From positions 1 to 57,609 of the forward strand of contig JAILIP010000016.1 in assembly GCA_024695235.1 (NCBI GenBank): a DNA stretch of 57,609 nt. Direction: 5' to 3'. Numbering within the stretch: the first letter of the stretch is position 1; the number at the start of each line of letters is the position of its first letter. This document shows positions 7,193 through 54,188 of this stretch, piece by piece. This DNA comes from Bacilli bacterium. GTDB taxonomy: Bacteria > Bacillota_I > Bacilli_A > RFN20 > CAG-826. The translations under genes were made by a program, and so were the position numbers. The notes beneath the pieces are model-generated. The model worked only from the letters and a program-made list of their open reading frames with translations, did not search any database and was not told where the DNA came from.

Positions 7193-7262
7193 TATAATGT
7201 TGACAGAAAGAATCGACCCTTTGGGACTTTACTGTTGATACCCTATTGGGCGATTTTCTTTT
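7193..7262 (+). ncRNA. Antisense sRNA 1 of type I TA-like cassette 1
   Basis: TATAAT at 7193-7198; RNA from about 7204; stem AATCGACCC...GGGCGATT then TTCTTTTT, ending at the stop codon of the opposed peptide gene. Confidence 0.65.
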
Positions 7263-7342
7263 TATCTGCCGGAGCCAATAAGAAGAAAGATGATGACATC
7301 CACCGTGAATAGAACAATCTCTAGTTCACTCAATTGCTTCAT
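7262..7342 (-). CDS. Putative type I toxin peptide 1: MKQLSELEIVLFTVDVIIFLLIGSGR
   Basis: 26-aa ORF, SD GAAAGGAGG upstream of ATG, single hydrophobic segment. Confidence 0.7.
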   Translation of the reverse strand: MKQLSELEIVLFTVDVIIFLLIGSGR

Positions 7343-7431
7343 GCTCGCTACCTCCTTTCATTAAGATTGTTTAATGTCCCAGAGGTAATCGATTCTGAGT
7401 TTTAACGTCTTTAACTTTGGCATGATTATGT

Positions 7432-7502
7432 TATAATGTAGACAAGAAGAATAGAGTCCTCATAACACCTTTGTCTAGAGAGTTGTTGGAGACTCTTTTT
7501 TT
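7432..7502 (+). ncRNA. Antisense sRNA 2 of cassette 2
   Basis: TGTTATAAT extended -10 at 7432-7437; RNA GACAAGAAGAATAGAGTCC...; AGAGTC/GACTCT + T-run. Confidence 0.65.
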
Positions 7503-7578
7503 ATGTCAACTTCATGAGTAGGCATAACAAGAGTATTACTATAAGAAGAGTCAGAATTTGCTCAATTCTTTTCTTCAT
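7501..7578 (-). CDS. Putative type I toxin peptide 2: MKKRIEQILTLLIVILLLCLLMKLT
   Basis: 25-aa hydrophobic ORF, GAGGTGAT SD, same cassette architecture. Confidence 0.65.
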   Translation of the reverse strand: MKKRIEQILTLLIVILLLCLLMKLT

Positions 7579-7713
7579 ATAATCGATCACCTCATTTCTG
7601 GTGTTCAGATTTGAGGTCTCTATTCTGAGTTTTAACGTCTTTAGCTTTGACAAAACTAATATACACGATAATTTTTGCAATTAGTCTCAAATCGAACAAA
7701 TCTGTTTTTCAAA

Positions 7714-53598: not shown

Positions 53599-53668
53599 TA
53601 TAATGTAGACAAGAAGAATGGATCCCCCAGGTGATTTGTCAAGTCTCCCTGACTGGGTCTATTTTTTA
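53599..53668 (+). ncRNA. Antisense sRNA 3 of cassette 3
   Basis: TATAAT at 53599-53604, GACAAGAAGAATGGATCCCCCAGG..., GGGTCTATTTTTT tail. Confidence 0.6.
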
Positions 53669-53749
53669 TTTCATTACTACAAGGAGAAATATAATGAATA
53701 AATCGAAGGCTAATAGAAGCAGAAGTTTTTCTAGTTCTTTTAGTTTCAT
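53666..53749 (-). CDS. Putative type I toxin peptide 3: MKLKELEKLLLLLAFDLFIIFLLVVMK
   Basis: 27-aa hydrophobic ORF, SD GAGAAAGGAGGACG. Confidence 0.68.
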   Translation of the reverse strand: MKLKELEKLLLLLAFDLFIIFLLVVMK

Positions 53750-53819
53750 AAGACGTCCTCCTTTCTCCTGGAGGCATCCATTCCGAGTTTTAACGTCTTT
53801 ATCTTTGACGTGATTATGT

Positions 53820-53888
53820 TATAATGTTGACTGAAGAACTGATCCTCAGGGACTTTAGTCACTGACCCGTCGGGGTCGTTTTTCTTTT
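53820..53888 (+). ncRNA. Antisense sRNA 4 of cassette 4
   Basis: TGTTATAAT extended -10 at 53820-53825; terminator GACCCgtcGGGGTCGTTTTTC. Confidence 0.68.
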
Positions 53889-53967
53889 AACGTTTTGCAA
53901 CGATGAAGAGAAACACAATGAAGGCAAAGAAGACTATCGCTATCACTAGCTCACTTATTTGTTTCAT
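53887..53967 (-). CDS. Putative type I toxin peptide 4: MKQISELVIAIVFFAFIVFLFIVAKR
   Basis: 26-aa hydrophobic ORF sharing MKQxSEL start with peptide 1; SD GGAAAGGAGG. Confidence 0.72.
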   Translation of the reverse strand: MKQISELVIAIVFFAFIVFLFIVAKR

Positions 53968-54188
53968 AAACCATACCTCCTTTCCTTTAAACCAATAAAG
54001 TCCAAGAGGCAATCAGTTCCGAGTTTTAACGTCTTTAACTTTGACGCGTACATAATACACAATTCATATATAAAAATCAGTAGTTCCAAACAAAGTTTGA
54101 GACTACGTGAGACTAATTTTTTGAGAAATTAAAAAAGGAAGCATTGCTTCCTTAATTTTTGTCTCGTGAGACTAATTTGAAAACTTTT

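Follow-up and report, generated by a model that had tools for sequence, protein, structure and literature searches.

Four small cassettes (C1 to C4) in the window, the whole 57,609-nt stretch of DNA analyzed here, appear to belong to a multi-copy type I toxin-antitoxin family, and on balance the conserved pairing in these and related copies favors a reading of the putative toxin mRNA as a two-state RNA switch. Each cassette comprises a predicted minus-strand mRNA encoding a membrane-type peptide of 25–29 aa and a predicted convergent antisense RNA of ∼55–60 nt that lies over the mRNA 3′ end. The 5′ and 3′ ends of the mRNA are complementary to each other in a copy-specific manner, and a short anti-Shine-Dalgarno (anti-SD) segment in the leader is matched both to the Shine-Dalgarno sequence (SD) and to an SD mimic at the 3′ end.

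Organization and distribution of the cassettes

As read from the sequence, the order of elements along the mRNA is a small hairpin, a copy-specific tag, the anti-SD, the SD, a hydrophobic open reading frame, and a 3′ arm complementary to the tag and anti-SD (Table 1). A sequence check confirmed the positions and strands of all eight tag sequences quoted in a preliminary description of this DNA.

Table 1. Features of the four cassettes and of associated motifs; positions are those of the window unless otherwise given.
Cassette	Feature	Position	Strand	Basis or remark
C1	5′-terminal hairpin region, stem and loop AAAGNNAAA	7405-7424	-	Alignment A1 columns 2-5/15-18; imperfect here (GCC/GAC)
C1	mRNA 5′ tag and anti-SD GAATCGATTACCTCTGGGAC	7376-7395	-	Sequence and covariation
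C1	SD GGAGGT	7350-7355	-	Complementary to leader TACCTC
C1	ORF, 26 aa MKQLSELEIVLFTVDVIIFLLIGSGR	7262-7342	-	No Pfam, NCBIfam or PHROGs family
C1	mRNA 3′ arm	7208-7227	-	Complementary to 5′ tag; reverse complement of sRNA 5′ tag
C1	Antitoxin sRNA (inferred), ending in TTTTCTTTTT	7205-7263	+	Sequence; -10 TATAAT at 7193-7198
C2	5′-terminal hairpin region	7635-7654	-	
C2	mRNA 5′ tag and anti-SD GAATAGAGACCTC	7613-7625	-	
C2	SD TGAGGT	7589-7594	-	Complementary to leader ACCTCA
C2	ORF, 25 aa MKKRIEQILTLLIVILLLCLLMKLT	7501-7578	-	
C2	mRNA 3′ arm with SD mimic GAGG	7447-7461	-	
C2	Antitoxin sRNA (inferred)	7444-7502	+	Sequence; -10 at 7432-7437
C3	5′-terminal hairpin ACGTC-AAAGATAAA-GACGT	53793-53812	-	
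C3	mRNA 5′ tag and anti-SD GAATGGATGCCTCCAGG	53767-53783	-	
C3	SD GGAGGA	53756-53761	-	
C3	ORF, 27 aa MKLKELEKLLLLLAFDLFIIFLLVVMK	53666-53749	-	
C3	mRNA 3′ arm	53614-53631	-	Complementary to 5′ tag
C3	Antitoxin sRNA (inferred)	53611-53668	+	Sequence; -10 at 53599-53604
C4	5′-terminal hairpin GCGTC-AAAGTTAAA-GACGT	54029-54048	-	
C4	mRNA 5′ tag and anti-SD GAACTGATTGCCTCTTGGACTTTA	53996-54019	-	
C4	SD GGAGGT	53975-53980	-	
C4	ORF, 26 aa MKQISELVIAIVFFAFIVFLFIVAKR	53887-53967	-	Sequence
C4	mRNA 3′ arm with SD mimic GAGG	53834-53857	-	
C4	Antitoxin sRNA (inferred), GC-rich hairpin GACCCGTCGGGGTC then GTTTTTCTTTT	53832-53889	+	Sequence; -10 at 53820-53825
	UUAAAACUC stretch	7397-7403, 7627-7633, 53785-53791, 54021-54027		Alignment A1 columns 19-27
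	TTTGAGACTAATT/TTAGTCTCA motif sites	7673-7689, 54100-54185; G000 C11:56748, C13:16930, C24:32020		

The peptides have a charged N-terminus followed by a hydrophobic stretch, are preceded by a perfect SD, and matched no family in Pfam, NCBIfam, or PHROGs. Differences among copies fell on the three codon positions in the proportions 321/157/443, with the third position most variable and the second least, as in coding sequence. In one copy (L088), codon 3 is an in-frame stop while the RNA parts are intact, and a few copies are without a normal start codon. On the plus strand, nearly every complete copy has a TATAAT-like -10 hexamer about 6–7 nt before the predicted start of the antisense RNA, which precedes the tag, and a terminator-like T-run about 55 nt after the start of the tag; the resulting small RNA (sRNA) would be perfectly antisense to the mRNA 3′ region over about 60 nt.

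The source genome, a 994-kb assembly estimated at about 70% complete and of which the window is one contig, contains eight cassettes at five places: four in the window as two tandem pairs, two in tandem on contig C13, and one each on contigs C11 and C24; in other genomes of the genus, tandem arrays reach six cassettes (L010). A pattern scan of named genomes recovered further copies from metagenome-assembled genomes of uncultured Bacilli, Bacillales, and Erysipelotrichaceae, mostly from rumen or gut. In total, 59 cassettes were extracted, 52 of them non-redundant and nearly all from one family. The search anchor was a conserved block just upstream of the tag (the dyad and TTAAAACTC), and neither the tags nor the 3′ ends were used for finding; because the block served as anchor, its own conservation is partly ascertainment. 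A covariance model built on the leader alone, which never saw the 3′ end (R1), located cassettes in 55 of the 196 genomes of the family, spanning 14 of 35 genera. When extended to the order (279 genomes in all), the same search gave a single weak match outside the family, which was unrelated in sequence (L155); weak R1 matches (E > 1e-5), this one included, lay mostly in unrelated sequence on inspection and were set aside. Pattern matches in Leuconostoc, Synechococcus, Bacteroidales, and viral contigs were likewise rejected as cassettes, as those inspected had no leader, open reading frame, or 3′ tag. Two loci (L143 and L070) have the leader and open reading frame with neither a matching 3′ arm nor an sRNA promoter, and are possible orphan toxins or decayed copies.

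Covariation in the mRNA and its antisense RNA

Among the 52 non-redundant cassettes, the tag of each mRNA is complementary to the 3′ end of that same mRNA, and the tags differ among copies and match within each, as the preliminary description had claimed from four copies; the match is far from chance. The mean energy of the duplex between 5′ and 3′ arms was −26.3 kcal/mol for cognate versus −17.8 kcal/mol for non-cognate arms, and none of 100,000 permutations was as good; with one representative per sequence cluster, z-scores were −13.3, −9.3, and −4.5 for 32, 18, and 7 clusters, respectively. Unguided RNAalifold, with the alignment as sole input, recovered this fold-back helix with compensatory changes in 13 of its 20 pairs, together with the anti-SD:SD helix and a hairpin at the 5′ end. 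The fold-back cells were 88.5% paired with 104 double changes, versus 77.8% and 34 in shuffles (cells being counts of sequences and not independent events); the changes ran from C-G to U-A, U-G, or G-C and from G-C to C-G, A-U, or U-A, with G-C to A-U in 16 copies, and the signal was gone once the partner was shifted by one column. The tag also held in hold-out cassettes located with R1, among which new tags, GAACAGAG in L140 and GAGCAGA in L152, were each matched by their own 3′ end, and the few outer-tag differences among hold-outs (L118, L136, L158) were mostly G.U pairs. In the outer helix, G.U cells outnumbered C.A cells 7 to 1 with an ambiguous bulge column left out, and 3 to 0 in the hold-outs, an excess expected of pairs in the sense RNA rather than in DNA or the antisense strand. 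We regard fold-back pairing in a type I-like cassette as very probable on these grounds, and the earlier attribution of the covariation to RNA pairing is upheld; from the covariation alone we infer that the mRNA reads through to the tag. In two of the eight copies of the source genome (C1 and L007), tag pairing was lost in silico once the 5′ hairpin region was included. Pairing between the arm after the stop codon and the 3′ tag, a shared terminator stem, was not copy-specific (z = −0.7) and was not used.

Directly after the tag, nearly every leader carries CCTC or a close variant, complementary both to the SD (91% of cells paired) and to GAGG in the 3′ arm. Double-change cells in the anti-SD:SD helix numbered 27 versus 11.8 in shuffles, and the anti-SD was copy-matched to both of its partners (z = −10.5 for the SD, −11.4 for the 3′ end); a single segment matched to two mutually exclusive partners has the anatomy of a switch. 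By folding, the probability of SD:leader pairing was 0.86 in the 3′-truncated mRNA, 0.38 in the full-length mRNA, and 0.68 with a foreign 3′ end, and the probability that the SD is unpaired was 0.044 in truncated versus 0.159 in full-length molecules, being higher in the latter in 47 of 52 copies; because accessibility rises yet stays modest, an “open” SD is a relative term. In full-length folds, the SD was often re-paired inside the open reading frame (0.385), and the leader kept the SD in 20 of 52 copies. The two states were near equal in energy: their mean difference was −0.9 kcal/mol, and in 27 of 52 copies they lay no more than 3 kcal/mol apart. Folding with pair penalties valued the fold-back at about 8 kcal/mol over no fold-back. 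Blocking the 3′ end was predicted to lower the probability of an unpaired SD from 0.16 to 0.05.

Upstream of the tag is a 4-bp stem with the loop AAAGNNAA(A), the arms of which change jointly (GTC/GAC, GAC/GTC, GAG/CTC, GGC/GCC), even among copies of one genome, giving 34 double-change cells versus 13.3 in shuffles. The concerted change of the two arms, seen among copies of a single genome (L010), led us to drop a reading of this conserved dyad as an operator in favor of an RNA hairpin at the start of the mRNA, which is the best reading. A position-resolved count of -10-like hexamers peaked 5 nt before the hairpin, although a shuffle test for an upstream -10 over the whole set showed little difference (4.25 versus 4.02 matches), and plain -10-like hexamers are present in several relatives (TATAATAATAGTGAC in L107, TATAATAATTAGGAC in L132, TATAATATTATTGAC in L140). 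Given the covarying hairpin before the tag and the -10-like peak before the hairpin, the mRNA would likely begin ∼25 nt upstream of the start of the tag, and the tag would not form the extreme 5′ end as previously proposed. The single strand between hairpin and tag, UUAAAACUC, is nearly invariant in the 52 copies, although it belongs to the search anchor and is thus partly ascertained; no pairing partner for it was found in the 52-copy alignment. A further motif, TTTGAGACTAATT or repeated TTAGTCTCA units, lies just upstream of the first mRNA promoter at all five cassette places of the source genome and could represent either a site for a regulator or a short repeat dispersed in the genome; five of its eight exact matches genome-wide are at cassette places, and the others are at recA/cinA and cysS/rlmB.

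Because of the inverted repeat, the predicted sRNA repeats the mRNA 5′ arm at its own 5′ end, in agreement with its earlier portrayal as a same-sense mimic of that arm. Within the source genome, the energies of cognate sRNA:mRNA duplexes ran from −114 to −127 kcal/mol, and no non-cognate duplex was better than −73 kcal/mol. The covariation had also been taken as a sign of copy-specific cognate recognition by the sRNA, a claim that was not sustained: copy-specificity of the tag already follows from pairing inside one mRNA and does not by itself show such recognition, although specificity of the sRNA would follow anyway from its 60 nt of perfect antisense. Pairing of the sRNA 5′ end with the leader was weakly copy-specific (z = −2.8).

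A candidate switch and its alternatives

Since the 3′ end carries an SD mimic and not an anti-SD, fold-back is expected to free the SD and not to lock it away, and the covariation and folding models, with bsrG/SR4 as a precedent, incline us to this direction, in which fold-back opens the SD. If the finished 3′ end is free, its tag and SD mimic would pair along the 5′ arm and draw the anti-SD off the SD, turning translation on. The sRNA, which mimics the 5′ arm and is perfectly complementary to the 3′ end, would capture that end, whereupon the anti-SD would pair with the SD again and translation would be turned off; the long sRNA:mRNA duplex would presumably be cut by RNase III.

A different outcome of the same fold-back is a storage form like that of hok or AapA, in which the outer tag helix and the anti-SD:SD helix together lock the mRNA inert until its 3′ end is trimmed or it slowly refolds, with the sRNA serving to remove it. 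The RNAalifold consensus, which holds the fold-back tag and the SD hairpin together, the low SD accessibility of full-length folds (unpaired 16% on average), and the precedent of AapA3, with its fold-back and transient SD hairpins (PMC6733600), all point this way; however, the 3′ end is an SD-like GAGG rather than an anti-SD, the inner pairing of anti-SD with 3′ end is as copy-specific as that of anti-SD with SD, and removal of the 3′ end closes the SD further (pairing with the leader 0.86 versus 0.38), so that trimming would not activate the mRNA, and we consider a storage form unlikely. Less likely again is an antitoxin that acts by decay only, as in txpA/RatA, with a long 3′ duplex cut by RNase III and a 5′-3′ pairing that protects from exonucleases with no switch. 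Such an antitoxin would agree with the perfect antisense of about 60 nt at the mRNA 3′ end and with the mode of action of RatA (PMC6562991), and the 5′ hairpin and fold-back are both plausible stabilizers, but it leaves unaccounted for the copy-matching of the anti-SD segment to the 3′ end and the greater displacement of the leader from the SD by native than by swapped 3′ ends.

The inverted repeats might, with very low probability, involve no RNA pairing at all, being the ends of a mobile element or kept alike by gene conversion or a DNA-binding protein. The multi-copy nature of the cassettes, both dispersed and in tandem, would suit mobile-element ends, yet the tags differ among copies while matching within each, their identity, interrupted by regular bulges (ACCTC versus CCTC), begins inside the transcripts and extends for about 20 nt, and G.U outnumbers antisense-type C.A in the outer helix. 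The same features bear out the earlier view that the repeats are not fixed transposon terminal inverted repeats.

Relation to known type I systems

By the features tested, which are those of sequence and predicted structure, the cassettes would represent a new type I variant and belong to none of the systems compared. No description of it was found in the literature searched, of which coverage was incomplete, and no related DNA was found in the plasmid and phage records searched. Rfam covariance models gave no match at gathering threshold for the window cassettes and none at E ≤ 1 for C1 and C2. On the sRNA strand of another locus (L141, 280-374, +), a sub-threshold match to the Listeria rli56 was observed (27 bits versus a gathering threshold of 47), which none of ten other loci reproduced and which is probably due to chance.

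The nearest analogue is bsrG/SR4 of the Bacillus subtilis SPbeta prophage, which also pairs a short hydrophobic peptide with an antisense RNA over the mRNA 3′ end. Binding of SR4 at the bsrG 3′ end lengthens the SD-masking stem from 4 to 8 bp (PMC6562991), so that in both systems, by prediction in the cassettes, an antitoxin at the 3′ end alters SD pairing. In the SPbeta bsrG, a perfect inverted repeat of 10 nt links the leader to the stretch just past the stop codon (L159, 358-367 and 522-531), so that SR4, too, would carry part of the leader in the same sense and be a partial leader mimic; this suggests from sequence that classical bsrG/SR4 may also use a 5′-3′ fold-back mimicked by the antitoxin. 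SR4 differs in being about 180 nt long with several loops, whereas the cassette sRNA is about 55–60 nt and carries the mimic at its extreme 5′ end, and the cassettes differ further in that their pairing is copy-specific in tandem arrays and includes the CCTC anti-SD and GAGG SD mimic. No sequence similarity to bsrG/SR4 was found, and the peptides showed no homology to BsrG or TxpA and no family match. The par/fst system of pAD1 (Fst/Ldr) shares convergent promoters, a short sRNA, an SD-masking 5′ stem-loop, a 5′ stabilizing helix, and a small membrane peptide (PMC7472228). In Fst, however, direct repeats (DRa/DRb) make the 5′ regions of the two RNAs mutually complementary (PMC7472228), whereas the cassette repeat is inverted, such that both RNAs share the same sense sequence at their 5′ ends and the mRNA pairs with itself; in addition, the cassette peptides have no PXXXG motif of Fst/Ldr and no Pfam match.

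Long-distance 5′-3′ pairing in a small-toxin mRNA combined with a co-transcriptional SD-masking hairpin is shared with aapA/IsoA of Helicobacter pylori and hok/Sok (PMC6733600), and the preliminary description had likened the fold-back to hok or AapA. That likeness did not extend to the predicted logic, which is reversed: in AapA3, the SD is masked by an anti-SD at the 3′ end, and trimming activates the mRNA (PMC6733600), whereas the cassette 3′ end is an SD mimic that would bind the leader anti-SD, and truncation is predicted to close the SD by raising its pairing with the leader. In timP/TimR of Salmonella, activation occurs without processing, through a slow conformational change that is reversed by the sRNA (PMC11295053). 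The cassettes would resemble it in having an unprocessed toxin mRNA activated and an sRNA that reverses the conformational change, but timP activation involves a pseudoknot inside the 5′ UTR rather than simple release of the SD. In a commentary on timP, processing-free activation of Gram-positive type I toxin mRNAs is named as open for fst and txpA (PMC11295053).

We suggest tentatively that translation in this family may be licensed by the joining of the mRNA’s own ends, with the antitoxin acting in trans as a replica of the 5′ arm that outcompetes it for the 3′ end, a logic the reverse of hok/AapA and deployed as many orthogonal tag variants in tandem in one genome. With three covarying helices, two of them mutually exclusive, the switch mechanism would be readable from evolution and testable by tag swaps, and the dozens of natural variants, with up to six differently tagged cassettes in tandem per genome, would constitute a natural test of orthogonal RNA control.
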